IMG/VR virus record: IMGVR_UViG_3300013116_000265
Coordinates: 1-27,737 of that record
DNA: 27,737 nt
Origin: a virus
Reading direction: 5' to 3' (one strand)
Part shown: in pieces, positions 19,992 to 27,737 of the stretch
Numbering within the stretch: the stretch's first letter is position 1
Layout: the number at the start of each line of letters is the position of its first letter
Position numbers and translations under genes: made by a program
The notes under the pieces: generated by a model
The model's input: only the letters and a program-made list of their open reading frames with translations
The model's database searches: none
Told to the model about the DNA's origin: nothing

Positions 19992-22400
19992 TTAAGCGAA
20001 AAAGAATTCAGAGTCTCTCACCAACTCAAGATTTAAGTTGCCTCGACGAGGCGGCTTTTCTAGCTTAGCTTTAACTGCATCTGGCATCGACTGATACAAA
20101 TCATTAAGCACATCTGCCTCATACATCTCTGCAAATTTTTCTCTCAGAATTTCAAACAAGTCAGGAGTTACTGCAGCGTGGGTTCCAAAGGAATCATGAA
20201 TCATGGCGAAGTCTCTAATGTCATGCCTGGCACATTCATTTACGGTCAACATTAGGTGAGAAGCATCAAGTGAATGCACGAAGTTTGGTGCAGCGCCTTG
20301 CCTCTGCTTCGGTTTTTTTATCTGTGCTGAACCAGTTCGTTGGGTAAATTTGACGGAACGGCCTTCGACAAAAACTTTAAATCTTTGCGTTTCGTAATCG
20401 TAATATTCTTGCACCACTGGCAATCCGGTAGGAGTGACCCAGCTGAAAGCTCCATCGAGATTATCAATCACTTGAGCTTTAGTGGACGCTGCAGATGCTA
20501 ACCAGTTCATCACATCAAAAGCAGCTCCAGCGACATCACCGATGACACCATGTATTTGTTCGGCTAAGAAGGCAGCAAGAGAAGAGTTAGTGCCTTCTTG
20601 ATATTCGAGCTTTCCTTTTCGGACCAGCTTACGGCACTTATCTACAATCTGATCTCGCATTCCGATCCGAGTGACACCATAAGACAGTGTCATCACTGGT
20701 TGCTTCACTACATCTCGACTCACTTTGCCTACCCAATAGTGAGCCTCTTCGATGCCTTCTGCTGCTTGTTTGGTCAGCAATATTTCAACACCATCAGCAA
20801 CCTGAGTGTATATGTCAGCCGAGTGCTCTGTATTAGTCTGCACAACATTCACTGCTTCGGCAGTCTTTTGATCGAGCATAATGCCGGCAAAGTGCTGGAG
20901 CCCATTGCAACTCCCATCGATGGCTATTGGAAGATGACTTACATAGTCTTCGCCTTCCATGGTGTAACCTAATAGCTCAAAGCAACAGGCTAGAAAACAA
21001 AAAGGCTTGTCAGCTTCCATCCAGCCTCGATTCACCATGGGGTCCATAGCATAAGCGCAGTAGTCATCTAGGTTCTCTTGAGTTGCATCAATGCGAGACT
21101 GAAGGTTGATCTTATCGTTACCCCATACGTTTTGGGCATGAATAAATAACCAAGGCACGCCTTCTTCACCAAGACGCATTCCTCTGGCAAATTTCAACAT
21201 AGCCTTACCGCTGTCATCGCCTTGTGGATTGATAGCGCCTCGTCCAGCTAAAGGATAGATGCGGCCTCGGAAATCTAGATTGTGTGGGAAATAGAGCTCT
21301 TCTTCTTCGAGCAGCAATTTACCCATCTTGAGCTTTTGAGCTTCAACGCAAGATTTTGCTTGAGCATCTTTAAGTGCTTCAAAAGCCTCTCTTCTTTGAG
21401 ATTGTCGTTTCGAAAAACCACTCTCATGCCGCTCAATCCTTTCTGGCACATTTATGTCACTTTGGTCACTGCATCCTGCTAAACCTTTGCCTATGCATTG
21501 AAGCCAGACATCCCACACGGGGACGTTGATGCACCAGGCGGTGTTTTGAATTGTATTTACTGCCTCCATCACAATCGACAAATCTGAATTTTCTAACGCT
21601 TTAGGAAAGGACTTTTCTCTGGTTCTGACGAGGCAAGCGGGATGGAGATTTTGATAGAGGTAACCACCATCATAAAGAGTGGTCCATGGAGCAGGTGGTA
21701 TAACCATCGGCAAGTGGTATGGAGCTGCAACTTGATTCGTGAAGTTGGCATCTTTGATCCACTGATTGCCTAAATCAGTAGGCTCTATGTACTTTTCAGA
21801 ATAGCAACTGTTTCGCCAATGTTGCTGGACCTCAAAGAGTCCTGTGTGAGAGCAAAACAAGTCAATTAACGTACAACCTATAGATAAAGCTTCTTGATCT
21901 GACGCTTCGATATGGACTGTCTCAGCAGTAAAAGTTTCAGATGCTATTTTTTCTCGAATGTAGCTTTTAGGTTGCCAGTTGAGAGTTCTAACTAACTTAT
22001 TAAACTTGTCTTTGTCTAACATCTCATACAGATGAGCACCACAAGCAATAAGTACATCAGTCGCCAATTGATTAACAACAGAACGATAAGTTCTATTCTT
22101 TTTGGCAATTGCATTGACTATAACGCGAGCTGTGAGAAAACTTGTGGTGGAGGTAGGGAGTATCTTAATGTATTTCAAAGAGCTAGGCTTTCTGCCCTTT
22201 TTACTTTCTGTGGATTCAATCCATGAATCCAAGAACTTAATGAATGACTCTTCGTTAGTTAATGTTTTCTTAATGAGAGTTTTGCCGCCCGGAGTGCCAC
22301 TTAATCCTTGTCGCTTAATGTCTTTGGCAATTCGATCTTCTTGAATTGCGATTGCAACTCTCTCTAAAGCTTTCTCTTTTTCCAGCTTTATGTCTTCCAT
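19992..22400 (-). CDS. T7-type single-subunit RNA polymerase (802 aa)
   Basis: The start chosen is the ATG at 22400, with AAGGGG six bases before it; the ATG two codons upstream is too close to that signal. Key blocks are LDFRGRIYPL, AIDGSCNGLQHFAG (catalytic Asp near residue 495, equivalent to T7 D537), KQPVMTLSYGVTRIGMRD (Lys and Tyr equivalents of T7 K631 and Y639), APNFVHSLDASHL and MIHDSFGTHA (second catalytic Asp near 737, equivalent to T7 D812). All catalytic residues are present. It should transcribe phage promoters; the best candidates are the two CACTWAAAGGGG elements at 22529-22546 and 27279-27297. Confidence 0.97.
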   Translation of the reverse strand: MEDIKLEKEKALERVAIAIQEDRIAKDIKRQGLSGTPGGKTLIKKTLTNEESFIKFLDSWIESTESKKGRKPSSLKYIKILPTSTTSFLTARVIVNAIAKKNRTYRSVVNQLATDVLIACGAHLYEMLDKDKFNKLVRTLNWQPKSYIREKIASETFTAETVHIEASDQEALSIGCTLIDLFCSHTGLFEVQQHWRNSCYSEKYIEPTDLGNQWIKDANFTNQVAAPYHLPMVIPPAPWTTLYDGGYLYQNLHPACLVRTREKSFPKALENSDLSIVMEAVNTIQNTAWCINVPVWDVWLQCIGKGLAGCSDQSDINVPERIERHESGFSKRQSQRREAFEALKDAQAKSCVEAQKLKMGKLLLEEEELYFPHNLDFRGRIYPLAGRGAINPQGDDSGKAMLKFARGMRLGEEGVPWLFIHAQNVWGNDKINLQSRIDATQENLDDYCAYAMDPMVNRGWMEADKPFCFLACCFELLGYTMEGEDYVSHLPIAIDGSCNGLQHFAGIMLDQKTAEAVNVVQTNTEHSADIYTQVADGVEILLTKQAAEGIEEAHYWVGKVSRDVVKQPVMTLSYGVTRIGMRDQIVDKCRKLVRKGKLEYQEGTNSSLAAFLAEQIHGVIGDVAGAAFDVMNWLASAASTKAQVIDNLDGAFSWVTPTGLPVVQEYYDYETQRFKVFVEGRSVKFTQRTGSAQIKKPKQRQGAAPNFVHSLDASHLMLTVNECARHDIRDFAMIHDSFGTHAAVTPDLFEILREKFAEMYEADVLNDLYQSMPDAVKAKLEKPPRRGNLNLELVRDSEFFFA

Positions 22401-22467
22401 ATGCATCCCCTTGCTTAGCGTTAGGTATTATATATATATGGGCTGATATATATAAAACATAAAGAAA

Positions 22468-22509: not shown

Positions 22510-22528
22510 AGTTGGGGAAGTGGGATGT

Positions 22529-22546
22529 TCCCCTTTAAGTGGTCCT
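22529..22546 (-). promoter_or_regulatory. Candidate phage (T3/T7-class) promoter before RNA polymerase
   Basis: The - strand reads AGGACCACTTAAAGGGGA, with +1 expected at the first G of GGGG (22533). It matches the element at 27279-27297 at 17 of 18 positions over GGACCACTWAAAGGGGAA and shares CACT-AAAGGG with the T3 promoter consensus. It is intergenic and points to the polymerase gene. Confidence 0.65.
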
Positions 22547-22553
22547 TTAGAAC

Positions 22554-23711
22554 TCAAAGACCCAATGCTCGATATTTCTGAGCCAGCTTTTCGCTGGCAT
22601 ACCGCTTCTCTGCTTCGTATTGATAAAAGTTGTAGTGCTTCTTCGTAATGTTGCTGGAAGAGGTGTGATTTAGCATGCTCTCGATCACTGAATCCTTAGT
22701 ACCTAACCGAGCAAGTTCAGTAGCAAACAATTTTCTTAGGTCATGAGGTGTAGCTCTCTGAGAGGCTCTGTGAGACATCCTTGTGCATACTTGATGAAGT
22801 GTATATTTCCCCATTGAAAACACTGTACAGGCTCCTGAGAGCCCCTGACACCACTTCTTGAGTATATCGAAGGAAGATTGCGACAGTACAATCATATGAG
22901 ACATCCCATTTTTGGTTATCTCGCCTGGCAGGACTAATTTTCTTGAAGAGAAATCCACCATGTCACGAGTGATTGCCCTGAGCTCCCCGGTTCTCATCCC
23001 GGTGAGCATGATTAATCTGAGCGCATCGAGGACCATTGGCTGGCACTTTGATTGGTGCCACGCTTCAAAATAAGCACTTAGCTGGTCATCAGTAGCAAAA
23101 AAACGTCTTGGCTTTTCTTTGCACCGAGGAATTCCAGAAGCAGGGTTATGAGTCACAATCCTTTTGTCGATTCCAAAATTGAACATCTTGGAGAAGCACG
23201 AGGCCATCCTGTTGGCAGTTGTTGGTGTGTACTTCGCGATTGAATCAATGTAGTCCCTGATGCTGTCCTGAGCATCTTGAAGAGAACATATATGTGTCGA
23301 AAGGTGAGACTCGTTGTCTTCCAAGTACACTATGAGTCGATTTATGTATGTCGAATAGGTTGTGACGGTGTCTTCTGTGAGGTTCTGCTTGGCATAGTCC
23401 CGAATGAATCGCTGCTTCAATGTGTGGAGCGTTGCATTATCACGAAAAAGATTGATCACCTGTGGCTCTAAAATAGGAGTTGGTGGAAGATGTCGTATAT
23501 TGAAAAGTGCATCATAGATAGGCATAACTTGAGCGAGATGTTCGCCTAAAGGTATGTCCTTTTGATAGGCTTTATTGCGTGATCTGTAGTAAAACTTACG
23601 GGTGCCATTCTTATAGAGCCTTAGCTCCAGATTAGGCTTAGATGGGTCACGATAGACCACCTTCTCCCCCATAGGTATTAGCTGGCTTATGGCTTCTTGT
23701 GTAAATTTCAT
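22554..23711 (-). CDS. int: Tyrosine recombinase / phage integrase (385 aa)
   Basis: AAGGGGA lies nine bases before the ATG at 23711. The N-terminal part (residues 18-56, KVVYRDPSKPNLELRLYKNG...) resembles the DUF4102-type arm-binding domain of prophage integrases. Residues about 95-185 form the SAM-like core-binding domain, and residues 205-385 the catalytic domain. Catalytic residues are R240 (LTGMRTGELRAI), a beta-hairpin Lys near 267, H323 and R326 (PHDLRKLFATELARLG), H349 (LNHTSS) and the nucleophile Y360 (KKHYNFYQYE). All are present, so the enzyme should be active, and the phage is probably temperate. The repressor gene lies just upstream in the same direction. Confidence 0.96.
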   Translation of the reverse strand: MKFTQEAISQLIPMGEKVVYRDPSKPNLELRLYKNGTRKFYYRSRNKAYQKDIPLGEHLAQVMPIYDALFNIRHLPPTPILEPQVINLFRDNATLHTLKQRFIRDYAKQNLTEDTVTTYSTYINRLIVYLEDNESHLSTHICSLQDAQDSIRDYIDSIAKYTPTTANRMASCFSKMFNFGIDKRIVTHNPASGIPRCKEKPRRFFATDDQLSAYFEAWHQSKCQPMVLDALRLIMLTGMRTGELRAITRDMVDFSSRKLVLPGEITKNGMSHMIVLSQSSFDILKKWCQGLSGACTVFSMGKYTLHQVCTRMSHRASQRATPHDLRKLFATELARLGTKDSVIESMLNHTSSSNITKKHYNFYQYEAEKRYASEKLAQKYRALGL

Positions 23712-24009: not shown

Positions 24010-24633
24010 TTAAGACCCGCCGAACCTTACGCTAGACAGTATGTAGACCTTCTCTAATTTTTCTTGATCCAGCTTTCTATAGTCATAATCGTTAATTATT
24101 TCGAACTTACTGCTACCTAAACGCTGAATTACCCAATTGTCTGGCTCAATATTAGTATTACATTCCCATTGCCCTTCGTGAATTGGATCTAAAACTGATA
24201 TAGAACTACCAGCGGGTAGTGTCATAAGAGTGCCATCGAGTAAGAACCATGTAATCTTTTTGTCGATCACAATTACCTTGTACTCAAGATTTGGATTGAA
24301 CAAAAAATCCCTATTAAGCGGAGTCTCTGCATCAGATATCTTATAAAGTATCTTAGAAGACGCTCTGTTTGGCAGTATGTCCGAGATTTCGGGATAGATC
24401 TGCTGCGGCGGCACCTTGAGGATGTTACATACTTTGATTATGAACTTAACTGATAGCGTTATTTTGCCAGAAAGATATTGGCTGAATGCTGACTGTTCGA
24501 TGCCTAGTGCATGCGCTATGTCGGTCTGAGTGAGCGCCTGGCGCTTCCTCTCTCGCTCCCAAACTTCACGCAGTCCAATGAGGAAAGGTTGCTGTAGCTC
24601 ATTAGGTAACCGAGCTGGATTAATCCGAGTCAT
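24010..24633 (-). CDS. HTH (XRE/cI-type) transcriptional repressor (207 aa)
   Basis: The ATG at 24633 has TAAGGGA upstream and overlaps the preceding gene by 14 bases. Residues 18-80 form an HTH_3 domain, with LTQTDIAHALGIEQSAFSQYLSGK (35-58) as helix-turn-helix and a following helix typical of lambda-repressor-like folds. The C-terminal 120 residues are beta-rich (YKVIVIDKKITWFLLDG, MTLPAGSSISVLDP) but show no clear Ser-Lys pair of S24 self-cleaving repressors. Release by RecA-stimulated cleavage is therefore not supported by the sequence. Next to the integrase, it is the best candidate for the lysogeny repressor. The operator is not proven; the 24-bp repeats flanking it are candidates. Confidence 0.85.
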   Translation of the reverse strand: MTRINPARLPNELQQPFLIGLREVWERERKRQALTQTDIAHALGIEQSAFSQYLSGKITLSVKFIIKVCNILKVPPQQIYPEISDILPNRASSKILYKISDAETPLNRDFLFNPNLEYKVIVIDKKITWFLLDGTLMTLPAGSSISVLDPIHEGQWECNTNIEPDNWVIQRLGSSKFEIINDYDYRKLDQEKLEKVYILSSVRFGGS

Positions 24634-24967
24634 CTTGAATTTCCCTTAGTTTTTCTTCGAGCTGGACCGCTAAGATGCCAGCTGCTGTATAGTGTAAGCA
24701 TTGACCTACTGCCATTCTTGCTTTGAGTTCTTCGCTTTTGAATTCGGTGAACGGTATGTTGGTCTCACCGCTGCGGATGAAGGCTAACACATGTTTTGAC
24801 TCATTCTTGCATGAAGAGTTGAATTCATCGAAATATTTGCGTGCGAGGTTTATCGCTTTTTTCTCTTCTTTGGATATTTCACCGACTTCCGGCCTCTCAA
24901 AATTGCTGATCTTGGTGCCAGGCGTAAAAAAACTCATCCGGGGCCAAGTGTTTTTTTGATTGCTCAT
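24620..24967 (-). CDS. Hypothetical protein upstream of the repressor (115 aa)
   Basis: The ATG overlaps the previous TGA as ATGA at 24967, and the end overlaps the repressor start, so it is cotranscribed with it. The protein is helical and charged, with two internal Cys and the segment LHYTAAGILAVQLEEKLREIQ near its C-terminus. No membrane segment or DNA-binding motif is seen. Its constant pairing with the repressor is the only clue: it could be an antirepressor or a partner that modulates repression. The family is not recognised. Confidence 0.65.
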   Translation of the reverse strand: MSNQKNTWPRMSFFTPGTKISNFERPEVGEISKEEKKAINLARKYFDEFNSSCKNESKHVLAFIRSGETNIPFTEFKSEELKARMAVGQCLHYTAAGILAVQLEEKLREIQDDSD

Positions 24968-25155
24968 GGTTGTGTCCGTTGATTTTCAGAAAATAAAATT
25001 TCTAACGCTCTAGGAGCGCCATTTTGAGAATTTCTAACGATGTAGGAAGAGGCAATTATTTTGCCGATTGCTGCATATGCGACGAGTTGCTCGAAGCTGT
25101 CTTTTTCGAGATTCTCGGCAATGCTCGCGAGCTTCGCGATTTTTTCAGTTTTCAT
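24964..25155 (-). CDS. Small hypothetical protein overlapping the 24-bp repeats (63 aa)
   Basis: The ATG at 25155 lacks a clear Shine-Dalgarno sequence, but the stop overlaps the next gene as ATGA. Residues 1-40 are helical (KTEKIAKLASIAENLEKDSF). The C-terminal 25 residues are encoded by the two repeat copies at 24996-25047, so the repeat may constrain the protein end, or the short gene may itself be mainly a regulatory stretch. Real coding is likely but not certain. The family is unknown. Confidence 0.5.
   Translation of the reverse strand: MKTEKIAKLASIAENLEKDSFEQLVAYAAIGKIIASSYIVRNSQNGAPRALEILFSENQRTQP
24996..25047. repeat. 24-bp repeat copy B1 and diverged tandem copy B2
   Basis: B1 (24996-25019) carries the dyad CGCTC-TAG-GAGCG after AAATTTCTAA. 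B2 (from 25029) repeats AATTTCTAACG and TAGGA 32 bases later, about three helical turns. Both lie 29-80 bases upstream of the start of the repressor operon's 115-aa gene, a typical operator position. Confidence 0.75.
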
Positions 25156-25169
25156 AGATTAGCCCATTA

Positions 25170-25337
25170 TTATTTGCATGGTTCGAGTTCCCGGTAATCG
25201 GGCCATATTTGATAGATGCATACATTCTCAAAATATAGGCGCTCTGCTTCGCGCTCGGCTTCCAGATCTGAAGTACTAGCAAAAGCATATAGCGCGAGCA
25301 CTGCTAGAAGCGCAGCACTGCCTTTTAACGGTTTCAT
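25170..25337 (-). CDS. Small secreted or membrane-anchored Cys protein (55 aa)
   Basis: The start is the ATG at 25337, with GAGGT about ten bases upstream; a TTG 15 bases further is the only alternative. Residues 1-22 form a signal-like segment, with basic MKPLKG, hydrophobic SAALLAVLALYAFA and then STS. Residues 24-34 are an acidic/basic helix (DLEAEREAERL), followed by a conserved-looking tail with two Cys (40 and 54) in C-IYQIWPDYRELEP-C. Similar tiny proteins with a C-x-Y-x-x-W-P-D-Y-R motif recur in marine phages, from memory. Its role is unknown; periplasmic superinfection exclusion or lysis regulation are possible. Confidence 0.65.
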   Translation of the reverse strand: MKPLKGSAALLAVLALYAFASTSDLEAEREAERLYFENVCIYQIWPDYRELEPCK

Positions 25338-25574
25338 AGTGTAATACCTCAATTATCAGCGTTAATGCATATAAACGGCCTAAACTGGCCGAAAATAGGC
25401 AATTAAGAGAGAAAAGCGCAATTTTCGAGCTCACTAGGAGCGATTACAGCGATTTTCCCGGTTCACTTGATGCGATAGTAGGGCCAAATTATCGGCCCTC
25501 ATATCGGCTTATATGCATTCGTATGATTTAACGCATATACAAAAGCCGACTGCTTTGCAGCAATCGGCTTTAAT
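25338..25574. promoter_or_regulatory. Intergenic region dense in short repeats and hairpins
   Basis: AATGCATATA occurs at 25364-25373, again inverted at 25510-25519, and as AACGCATATA at 25530-25539; the last two form an inverted repeat. Two GC hairpins, CGGCC/GGCCG (25375-25390) and AGGGCC/GGCCCT (about 25481-25500), lie between. A relative of the 24-bp repeat with CTAGGAGCG lies at 25434-25442. No gene is present. It is probably a promoter/operator region for the genes to its left; an origin is possible. Confidence 0.55.
25542..25571 (-). terminator. Hairpin terminator after the early gene block
   Basis: AAAGCCGA (25542-25549) pairs with TCGGCTTT (25564-25571), and an inner CTGC/GCAG stem closes a three-base loop. 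On the - strand it ends in CGGCTTTTG, a short T-run, immediately after the stop of the 74-aa gene. It could also work weakly on the + strand. Confidence 0.65.
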
Positions 25575-25799
25575 CTAGGCGCTCGTATCGTAATCAGTCG
25601 ATTTGAGCGTGCGCGTGATATGCGCCGTCCATGTAGCTGTATAGTTGATTATTTGACCATAGAAAGCGGCCGCTTCTTTATAGTCGCTGAATGGTCGATA
25701 GTCATCGGAAAATCCCCCATTGCTAAGCTTGGTGGTCCAACACACTAAATAAGATCCACGGCGCTTATTCTGCTGCTTTGGTTTTTGATCTTGCTTCAT
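25575..25799 (-). CDS. Hypothetical early protein (74 aa)
   Basis: The start is taken as the ATG at 25799, which overlaps the preceding TGA as ATGA; a start 27 bases earlier is possible. The N-terminus is basic and Gln/Lys-rich (MKQDQKPKQQNKRRG). It is followed by a compact alpha/beta segment (SYLVCWTTKLSNGGFSDDY, then FSDYKEAAAFYGQI) of a kind seen in small phage proteins. The last gene before a hairpin terminator, it ends the early block. Family and function are not recognised. Confidence 0.6.
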   Translation of the reverse strand: MKQDQKPKQQNKRRGSYLVCWTTKLSNGGFSDDYRPFSDYKEAAAFYGQIINYTATWTAHITRTLKSTDYDTSA

Positions 25800-26218
25800 T
25801 GCCATTGCCCGCCAATTAGTTTCCATGTTTCGACTGCAGCGGAATTAAGTAACTGCGTCATTGTTATCCCGGTTTCTCCCCGCTTGTCTAATTCTTCAGC
25901 GCGTCCGGTTGCATCGGTTTCGCTATCAAAAATATCCAAATTGGGAGCGGTAAAATTGTTAGAGTCATAGCCGATTTGCCATTCGGTTTTTTCCACTAAT
26001 TCGTCAAAGCTATTTATTTCGGGATTCTTGGAAATAGTGAATGACTTCGAAATTTCAATGTGTCCATCAGGGTGAACATCATCGAGAAAAGAAGCCAATA
26101 CTGTATTAGCTTCATAATCGCCTAACGTGCCGTCTAATCTTTCGACGATATCGGGCTGACATTTAGCAATTAACCATTCGTATAAAGTTTTGTATTTATC
26201 TTGCTCTCGTAAACTCAT
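25796..26218 (-). CDS. Hypothetical acidic early protein (140 aa)
   Basis: GAGGAG lies ten bases before the ATG at 26218, one base after the previous stop. The product is acidic (many Asp/Glu) and single-domain, beginning with a helix (REQDKYKTLYEWLIAKCQPDIVE) and ending in VETWKLIGGQWQ. No membrane segment and no motif of a known enzyme or anti-restriction protein was seen, although acidic DNA-mimic proteins are common in this genome position. The family is not recognised; its role in host takeover is inference from location. Confidence 0.65.
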   Translation of the reverse strand: MSLREQDKYKTLYEWLIAKCQPDIVERLDGTLGDYEANTVLASFLDDVHPDGHIEISKSFTISKNPEINSFDELVEKTEWQIGYDSNNFTAPNLDIFDSETDATGRAEELDKRGETGITMTQLLNSAAVETWKLIGGQWQ

Positions 26219-26219
26219 G

Positions 26220-26417
26220 CTAACGTGCTCCTCTTAATGATTCGTATAACGAAATTTCTTTTTCTAAATGGTTTATTTCGTTTTCAATTAGTGCTTTTGT
26301 AATAGGTGAAAATGGTGGTTCACCATCGCAAATGCCGGGATTATTGAAATCATTAACACTTTCTAAATCACTTTTTAATAATTTAAGATTTGTTTCCAAA
26401 TGGGCTTCTGTGTTCAT
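26220..26417 (-). CDS. Small coiled-coil hypothetical protein (65 aa)
   Basis: AAGGGGA lies eight bases before the ATG at 26417, which shares a base with the stop of the GP88-like gene (TAATG). Two helices with leucine spacing (LETNLKLLKSDLESVN and IENEINHLEKEISLYESL) are separated by a Pro/Gly-rich loop, giving a helical-hairpin appearance. The family is not recognised. Tight coupling to the GP88-like gene suggests a shared role. Confidence 0.65.
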   Translation of the reverse strand: MNTEAHLETNLKLLKSDLESVNDFNNPGICDGEPPFSPITKALIENEINHLEKEISLYESLRGAR

Positions 26418-27274
26418 TAGTGTATCCCCTTGTCGCTAGCAATAAGCGAATTTAATTTATTGAATGATTCAGGATTGAAGAAAAAAGAATTGTTTTTGTT
26501 TTCGGCTTCGCGCTGCGCTTTGCTCGATCCTTTGCGAGTCAATGCGCCAAATGCTCCCCGTCGATCAAGAAAGCGTAGGTCTGTAGTATCAAAATTGTCG
26601 AGATTGCCAGGCGTTTTAAATTCGCCTGGTAAATTTTTGGTATTGAAAGCTATTGCAGTGTTAATCCCGGCATTGATTGCCTTTGCAGTGTTCTTAATCG
26701 AGCGAGCATTAAACGCCGAACCGGAATAAGTTAAATGGTAGTTTGGTAGTTTGTTCTTGATAACGCGGCTATATAGCTTAGTGTAATCGTAATGCATTAC
26801 ATCGGGATTCGCTTGTATAACATCGGTCCAATCAATGTCACTAGTTCCATTTAGGCGAATAGCTAGCGCTTTACCATGCTTCTTAGCGGCGCGCTCTATT
26901 TCATTTATTAATGCTGCTTTGAATAGCTTAGGAAATAGCAAATATAAAACGGTGCGCTTTGCCATTGCGTCGCGCCCTACTGGCATACCAAGCTGGCCCG
27001 ATTGATATAAGCAGCCATCAGCGCAGCCAGCACTTTTAGCAGCTGGGCAAATTGTAGTTTTTGCAATGGCATTATGCGGGAATAGATACATCACTTTGGT
27101 AATGATCTTTTTCGCTTCGCCTTTTTCGACTTTCTTACTACTGCCTAGTAATTGCATTGGCTTTACTAGGTAATCGATATTATCGAAACACCATTGCTTA
27201 GCTGTATTGGTTAATAGATCGCTCGCAATGACTAGCACGAGCATTCGAAAAGCTGAGTAGTTGGATCTAAACAT
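26417..27274 (-). CDS. GP88-like Cys-motif phage protein (285 aa)
   Basis: The ATG at 27274 has AAAGGGGAA upstream, which is also the start of a candidate phage promoter. Residues 76-88 give CPAAKSAGCADGC (C-x7-C-x3-C), followed by LYQSGQLGM and, near 140-149, IRLNGTSDIDW. The later YDYTKLYSRV and YHLTYSGS segments complete the pattern of the phage/plasmid 'gene product 88' family. The closely spaced Cys may bind a metal or Fe-S cluster, but the family has no established biochemical role that I know of. It is the first gene after the methyltransferase and probably an early gene. Confidence 0.8.
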   Translation of the reverse strand: MFRSNYSAFRMLVLVIASDLLTNTAKQWCFDNIDYLVKPMQLLGSSKKVEKGEAKKIITKVMYLFPHNAIAKTTICPAAKSAGCADGCLYQSGQLGMPVGRDAMAKRTVLYLLFPKLFKAALINEIERAAKKHGKALAIRLNGTSDIDWTDVIQANPDVMHYDYTKLYSRVIKNKLPNYHLTYSGSAFNARSIKNTAKAINAGINTAIAFNTKNLPGEFKTPGNLDNFDTTDLRFLDRRGAFGALTRKGSSKAQREAENKNNSFFFNPESFNKLNSLIASDKGIH

Positions 27275-27278
27275 TTGT

Positions 27279-27297
27279 TTCCCCTTTTAGTGGTCCC
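27279..27297 (-). promoter_or_regulatory. Candidate phage (T3/T7-class) promoter before the GP88-like gene
   Basis: The - strand reads GGGACCACTAAAAGGGGAA, preceded by AATT as in the T3 consensus. Expected +1 is the first G of GGGG (27284), so the leader would be only GGGGAAACAA before the ATG at 27274. It is nearly identical to the element at 22529-22546 and intergenic. Confidence 0.68.
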
Positions 27298-27299
27298 AA

Positions 27300-27737
27300 T
27301 TAATTTATTGATGGTTTTAGAAAAAGTGATAGAAGCGCCTCGGTGATTTTGACGGGCTGCAGATAGTCAACAGATTGGCCAAGTATTTCGTGCGCTGTTG
27401 TTTTTGGTAGATTGTCGATCAAGTGCGCTGGCGCTGATTTAACGCGAGCGTGTTCGATAGGAGTTAATAAGCGTTCCATACCATCAGCGCGCACTATGAA
27501 TGGCTCAGTACTACGCTTCTTGTTGTAGAATCTGCCTATAGTGCCGCATTCGGTCTCGCTACCATTTAGCAGCTGGCGCTTAAATCCTTTTCCTGCTTTT
27601 GCATCGCGCTTGGCTTTCTCTTTTAGGTAGTCATTTTCGGCCCATAATTCGGGATCTACTTGGTTTTCAAGAATGCTTGCAATGGTGCGCGTGTTAACTT
27701 GTCCCGCTGGAATCTCGAAGGATTCAGGCGCGAGTCC
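27300..27737 (-). CDS. C5-cytosine DNA methyltransferase, C-terminal part (window edge)
   Basis: The frame is open from the window edge to the TAA at 27300-27302, giving about 145 residues; the start and the catalytic Cys domain lie beyond the window. The end carries RLLTPIEHARVKSAPAHLID, then TAHEILGQSVDYLQPVKITEAL. This matches the L-T-P-x-E-x-A-R-x-x-x-x-P...LGQSV C-terminal motifs (IX-X region) of Dcm-type enzymes. Upstream there is a Lys-rich segment (ENDYLKEKAKRDAKAGKG) and GTIGRFYNKKRSTEPFIV, perhaps the end of the target-recognition domain. No restriction enzyme gene is in view, so it may protect phage DNA as an orphan enzyme. Confidence 0.82.
   Translation of the reverse strand, partial: GLAPESFEIPAGQVNTRTIASILENQVDPELWAENDYLKEKAKRDAKAGKGFKRQLLNGSETECGTIGRFYNKKRSTEPFIVRADGMERLLTPIEHARVKSAPAHLIDNLPKTTAHEILGQSVDYLQPVKITEALLSLFLKPSIN

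Follow-up and report, generated by a model that had tools for sequence, protein, structure and literature searches.

Gene order at the right end of the window

The window, which is the whole of IMG/VR record IMGVR_UViG_3300013116_000265 (27,737 bases), was identified by Pfam profiles as a fragment of a T7-like phage that carries an integrase. Its minus strand codes for an RNA polymerase (PF00940), a DnaB/Toprim helicase-primase, and a family A DNA polymerase, as well as for an exonuclease, an endonuclease VII, and a T7-type SSB. At the right end, the genes on this strand are arranged in the order methyltransferase, GP88, small genes, HTH regulator, integrase, and RNA polymerase. The original prediction had named a methyltransferase C-terminus, a promoter, and a GP88 protein with a C-x7-C-x3-C cluster, in that order, and all of these are present. 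At the opposite end of the window (positions 3-191), we observed 21-base tandem units (n = 6) within an open frame.

The methyltransferase fragment (145 aa; 27300..27737, minus strand) is open at the contig end, with its 5′ part off the contig, and is separated from GP88 by 25 bases. It had no Pfam match of its own, and was recognized by the PADLOC model MTase_II (E = 8.6e-7) and by tblastn, where it was 60.7% identical, over 77% of its length, to the C-terminal part of a CDS from Pseudoalteromonas phage KB12-38 that is itself a PF00145 protein (E = 3.2e-17). Judged from these matches, the encoded protein is a C5-cytosine methyltransferase, of which the C-terminal portion is present. Compared with the C5-methyltransferases of PF00145, in which the catalytic cysteine motif is PCQ, the window gene matches the C-terminal region, while the catalytic N-terminal half lies beyond the record.

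GP88 itself (285 aa; 26417..27274, minus strand) was assigned to Pfam family PF17338 (E = 4.1e-28; 99.2 bits against a cut-off of 24.4; profile positions 12-222 of 230) and to phrog_1617 (E = 1.8e-47). It is followed on the same strand by a 65-aa gene (26220..26417) whose start overlaps the GP88 stop by 1 base and which matched no family in Pfam, phrog, PADLOC, or NCBIfam; by a 140-aa gene (25796..26218) without a Pfam or phrog match; by an 83-aa gene (25575..25826) with a weak match to phrog_9971 (E = 0.0095); and by genes of 63 aa (24964..25155) and 115 aa (24620..24967), for both of which a similar open reading frame was seen by eye in one of the two nearest relatives (L002). The original prediction had put the small genes within 26417-27737; they are real open reading frames but lie at 24620-26417, outside that interval. 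A further 60-aa frame on this strand (25170-25352) has a TTG start, a hydrophobic N-terminus, and a weak match to phrog_6168 (E = 5.6e-4). Beyond the small genes come, all on the minus strand, an HTH_3 repressor-like regulator (24010..24633; PF01381, E = 5.5e-8), a tyrosine integrase (22554..23711; PF00589, E = 9.7e-17), and the T7-type single-subunit RNA polymerase (19992..22406; PF00940, E = 2.7e-110).

Immediately 5′ of the GP88 ATG, at 27279-27296 on the minus strand, lies an 18-base motif, GGACCACTAWARGGGGAA, which contains a core resembling the T7 promoter core and which we list as a T7-type phage promoter motif (GGACCACTAAAAGGGGAA). A second copy with one mismatch was found by motif scan at 22528-22545 (minus strand), in the interval between integrase and RNA polymerase and thus 5′ of the latter; two copies of the motif occurred in 0 of 100 shuffles of the window. 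The motif was retained right before the GP88 start in both nearest relatives (L002/L194 and L003/L018, where L018 is the same contig as L003), whose GP88 proteins are 78% (L002) and 74% (L003) identical to that of the window. Since the motif precedes both GP88 and the RNA polymerase and is kept in these relatives, GP88 probably heads a transcript of the phage polymerase, as far as the sequence can tell. A plain T7 promoter was considered and rejected, given that the consensus with up to three mismatches is absent from the window and the local motif is a variant. Across 114 GP88 loci, T7-core-like sites before the gene matched at 10/10 positions in two cases, both from one contig, and at 9/10 positions in four cases against ~0.8 expected, a slight excess. 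On the upstream side, both relatives have a long intergenic region between GP88 and a divergent hydrolase-like gene (580-920 in L002; 5540-5960 in L003), and these two regions have blocks in common, for example TTGGTCGATTTTTGATCAAT and TTTTTGGGGACC. The methyltransferase occupies the side of the window that corresponds to this intergenic region.

The GP88 family and its cysteines

GP88 is shared by unrelated phages whose bacterial hosts live in the sea, in soil, and in the gut. A tblastn search with a limit of E ≤ 1e-3 turned up the gene in no fewer than 265 phage records, 237 of them mycobacteriophages and the others including pelagiphages, roseophages, HMO-2011, rhizobiophages, and jumbo phages. 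The family was furthermore present in at least 593 viral-contig stretches and at 26 loci from cellular genome contigs, with one member in a Lachnospiraceae metagenome-assembled genome. In Pfam, the window protein matched GP88 and no other family at E ≤ 1, neither a radical-SAM family nor PF07505, and PADLOC and NCBIfam returned nothing worthwhile for it. Papers that address what a phage GP88 protein does did not turn up in our searches, although work in subscription journals may have been missed, and the accessible parts of the toxicity and expression papers held nothing on GP88 itself.

The position of the gene is early-sided in many of these phages. GP88 is gp1 in HMO-2011, gp2 in CRP-143, gp3 in HTVC134P, HTVC115P, and HTVC120P, and gp4 in HTVC035P, and in Peaches and Turbido one annotated CDS separates it from the right end. 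Isolated pelagiphages have the order GP88, small genes, (Dcm), MarR, integrase (and RNA polymerase), which agrees with that of the window and bears out the original placement of GP88 at the start of the early region. L5 gp88 is presumably a member of the family as well. In L5, transcription from the early promoter Pleft meets gene 89 before any other CDS (PMC6550527), so that gene 88 would be the next. An early position was not plain in the stretches from DC31, RAS14, XacN1, Sansa, HTVC023P, Tunturi_5, and ctYwJ313. The gene can also be lost, as Rhizobium phage RHEph21 (L223, 641-880) retains an 80-aa remnant of GP88 at the place of the complete gene in TRX32-1, a phage of the same genus. Two unusual architectures were seen: In jumbo phage Tunturi_5 (L016, 2293-3753) the GP88 domain is fused to an inorganic pyrophosphatase domain (PF18823), and a further locus (L063, 6054-10010) contains a 1319-aa frame with the GP88 domain in the middle of the protein and no further domain recognized; long proteins similar to this one are listed in BFVD.

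The cysteine cluster of the protein is C76-x7-C84-x3-C88 (27011..27049, minus strand). Among 122 aligned relatives, all 120 that cover the site have the cysteine triad, and the cluster is therefore not a product of chance. The spacing varies (x7/x3 in 68, x6/x3 in 46, x5/x3 in 4, and other in 2) and differs from the canonical CxxxCxxC of radical SAM enzymes, of which variants are known: C-x5-7-C-x3-C accounts for 118 of the 120, with a last spacing of x3 where the canonical motif has x2. Further near-fixed motifs are RLNGTSD (residues 140-146; 26837..26857), YDYTK (residues 162-166; 26777..26791), N-Y-x-x-T-x-S, D-x-x-D-x-R-x-x-D, and K-G, where the coordinates are again on the minus strand. 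At single positions, S145 is kept in 118/122, D146 in 122/122, K166 in 120/122, and S184 (26723..26725, minus strand) in 122/122 sequences. Among the charged residues, R140 and D232 are invariant, and K48, K51, D229, R234, D237, and K248 are nearly always present.

The methyltransferase and other neighbors of GP88

We took a census of GP88 neighbors from the best 80 of the at least 593 viral loci, the 26 genome loci, and selected phage records. This census is biased to close homologs, since the best-scoring loci were taken, and many of the records are fragments. Within 6 kb of GP88 (121 loci), the families found, each named after one member, were DUF932 (34 loci), PF03013 (15), C5-methyltransferase (8), and PF25735 (7). 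When the loci were clustered at 70% GP88 identity (122 loci, 93 clusters), the corresponding counts were 21, 11, 7, and 5. DUF932 is often the gene next to GP88; PF03013 is the pyrimidine-dimer glycosylase family, and PF25735 is the L5 gp82 family, to which HMO-2011 gp2 also belongs.

A C5-methyltransferase lies within 2.5 kb of GP88 in HTVC134P, S42-C7, Sansa, Peaches, and two further loci (L047 and L060), and in the 8 records where both PF00145 and GP88 occur, their median distance was 1.55 kb. This nearness yielded a combined p of 0.0064 against uniform placement, in a post hoc test that includes one weak methyltransferase match (G006, 34 model positions). Such proximity speaks for the idea that methyltransferase and GP88 form a single DNA-modification or anti-restriction module, yet we consider this improbable, as several observations count against it. 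Neither of the two nearest relatives, in which GP88 and its promoter are both present, has a methyltransferase there. PF00145 occurred in 8 of 94 GP88-bearing records (3/50 and 5/44) compared with 9 of 50 control phage records (Fisher p = 0.11), where the control was the first 50 of 80 DUF5131 loci, chosen through DUF5131 and not host-matched. The methyltransferase is upstream of GP88 in the window but downstream in HTVC134P and S42-C7. Moreover, no GP88-linked methyltransferase resembles that of the window well, the best match being 32.6% identity over 43 residues (E = 0.06).

GP88 is also missing from the two records that carry the nearest kin of the window methyltransferase. A scan of RNA polymerase relatives for GP88 and methyltransferase was uninformative, as the close ones, except for the L002 contig, end before the GP88/methyltransferase side; GP88 was found in 0 of 18 records searched, a search run without a positive-control genome. 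The closeness of the two genes can be explained by a shared location in the early region. With the nearest relatives lacking the methyltransferase, no enrichment over the control, and a differing placement, the window methyltransferase looks like a separate gene that was independently gained into the early block. We accordingly dropped the module as the main reading of the locus. The functional tie proposed in the original prediction, a DNA-modification or defense-evasion island, is not supported by these findings, none of which points to defense evasion, and the co-occurrence in other phages on which it was to be checked was not enriched over the control.

Predicted fold and possible chemistry of GP88

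The AlphaFold2 model of GP88, built with 101 sequences, reached a pLDDT of 92.5 and a pTM of 0.90 and displays a TIM-like barrel. Along the chain, a first strand is followed by the cysteine loop, helices, and three strands that carry RLNGTSD, YDYTK, and HLTxS. C76, C84, and C88 sit between the first strand (58-61) and a helix (93-96), while RLNGTSD lies at the end of strand 137-140, YDYTK at the end of strand 160-165, and S184 at the end of strand 179-184. Foldseek gave no match to the model in the PDB at E ≤ 1e-3, and among viral models it returned GP88 proteins plus a DUF7227 protein (E = 5.1e-4); searching the PDB by sequence, with the GP88 profile as query, likewise gave no credible match. 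With VIA-align, the best solved structure was spore photoproduct lyase (4k9r; Z = 5.5, 181 residues, rmsd 5.8), a weak match, as its Z value is below the range that excludes unrelated barrels. Classed by title, radical SAM enzymes accounted for 11 of the 20 best rows and for 16 when all 50 displayed rows are counted; one of these rows, 2qgq, we take to be a radical SAM enzyme.

A second line of evidence came from profile comparison. We aligned the GP88 profile with hhalign to a set of 63 profiles that comprised DUF5131, rSAM_PA0069, spore photoproduct lyase, 30 single radical SAM proteins, 27 neighbor clusters, and 3 reversed profiles, where the neighbor clusters served as negative controls and are real proteins of several folds rather than random ones. 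DUF5131 came out on top with a score of 33.6, followed by 21.9 for the next profile, against 16.5 for reversed DUF5131; with 96 DUF5131 sequences (80 viral ones added), the score was 35.5 versus 20.1 for the reversed profile. The match probability was nonetheless only 28-36%, and spore photoproduct lyase (14.0, from 2 sequences) and rSAM_PA0069 (17.9) both fell within the control range. The aligned stretch pairs VRLNGTSDI..FYDYTK..R of GP88 with VFVNSMSDLF..LTKR..R of DUF5131, and a global alignment puts the cysteine triads side by side, C-x6/7-C-x3-C in GP88 and C-x6-C-x2-C in DUF5131, where 79 of the 80 viral members have C-x6-C-x2-C-Y. For two marine GP88 proteins, the existing annotation is Gp37/Gp68-like. 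Still, GP88 is not a DUF5131 protein, because it has no PF07505 match and a different cysteine spacing.

For DUF5131 itself, the structural match was stronger. A model of one member (L225 of L225-L304; pLDDT 92.6) matched spore photoproduct lyase with Z = 14.2 over 196 residues (rmsd 3.0), and its next matches were viperin, RlmN, lysine aminomutase, and lipoyl synthase, while a PDB sequence search with the DUF5131 profile yielded no credible match. From the modeled fold, DUF5131 (phage Gp37/Gp68) is very probably a radical SAM enzyme. Spore photoproduct lyase has the cysteine motif CxxxCxxC, and its residues S142, K174, and S195 presumably contact SAM. Its C140 is the hydrogen-donor cysteine according to PMC3742179, where, as in a second paper, we found no mention of SAM contacts for those three residues. 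When the motifs are compared by eye for their order, rather than by superposition, and the lyase is numbered so that its catalytic cysteine is residue 140, lyase C140-T-S142-D, T-K174, and S195 correspond to G143-T-S145-D, T-K166, and S184 of GP88.

On balance, and with modest confidence, we favor the reading that GP88 is a diverged iron-sulfur enzyme of the radical-SAM type, from the spore-photoproduct-lyase/DUF5131 branch and with a non-canonical cysteine motif. The cluster, the use of SAM, the radical chemistry, and the substrate that we infer would fit together as follows. A [4Fe-4S] cluster would be ligated by C76, C84, and C88, which follow the first barrel strand in a loop; this cluster and the strand-end residues S145, K166, and S184 would together provide the binding site for SAM; and the walls of the substrate site would be made up of R140, D232, K48, K51, D229, R234, D237, and K248. 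Once SAM is reductively cleaved, the resulting radical would, early in infection, modify a substrate that is small or nucleic-acid-like.

A barrel without radical chemistry must be weighed against this. The cysteine triad, together with another ligand, might bind zinc or another metal in a TIM-like barrel that acts as a binder of host proteins or as a hydrolase. The structural search leaves room for such a protein, as xylose isomerase, GH18/chitinase, and proline dehydrogenase barrels scored within Z 1 of the lyase match, similar to radical SAM enzymes, and C-x3-C is not the canonical radical-SAM spacing. What makes it somewhat unlikely is the DUF5131 profile match with its coinciding strand-end motifs, given that the predicted DUF5131 fold is clearly of the radical-SAM kind. 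A narrower proposal would make GP88 a DNA photoproduct lyase that repairs UV damage in the incoming phage DNA. Its best fold match would agree with this, and so may the occurrence of PF03013 within 6 kb in 15/121 loci and 11/93 clusters. We regard this as very improbable. GP88 is not a strict spore photoproduct lyase, since the place of the hydrogen-donor and catalytic C140 corresponds to G143, which is glycine in 118 of 121 sequences and cysteine in 1, and a member is found in the Lachnospiraceae metagenome-assembled genome, where light is unlikely to matter. The radical-SAM reading can also be extended to a phage-wide early enzyme whose target, a nucleotide or nucleic acid, is altered in a viperin- or lyase-like manner for the sake of host takeover or the blunting of defenses, an extension that we put forward as a speculation with rather little likelihood.

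Should GP88 indeed turn out to be a radical SAM enzyme, there would be a testable chemistry for an early gene that has long gone unexplained in mycobacteriophages and pelagiphages. The same would hold, with stronger support, for DUF5131, a common phage gene.

Among known systems, the window protein belongs with the PF17338 members of Peaches (gp85), Turbido (gp94), HMO-2011 (gp1), and the HTVC phages, with which it shares both the family and an early-region position, while it differs from the members in isolated phages by ~40 extra N-terminal residues and an identity of 31-37%. DUF5131 (PF07505) is the nearest of the 63 profiles compared and has, like GP88, a three-cysteine loop followed by S-D, T-K, and S at successive strands. 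The two are set apart by their cysteine spacing, C-x5-7-C-x3-C in GP88 and C-x6-C-x2-C-Y-A in DUF5131, and by the VGGESG and FKQWG regions, which are conserved in DUF5131 and were not seen in the GP88 consensus. Spore photoproduct lyase is the best fold match for GP88 and DUF5131 alike, with T-S-D-I, T-K, and S motifs in the same order, and GP88 departs from it by the x3 spacing and by the glycine in place of the catalytic C140.
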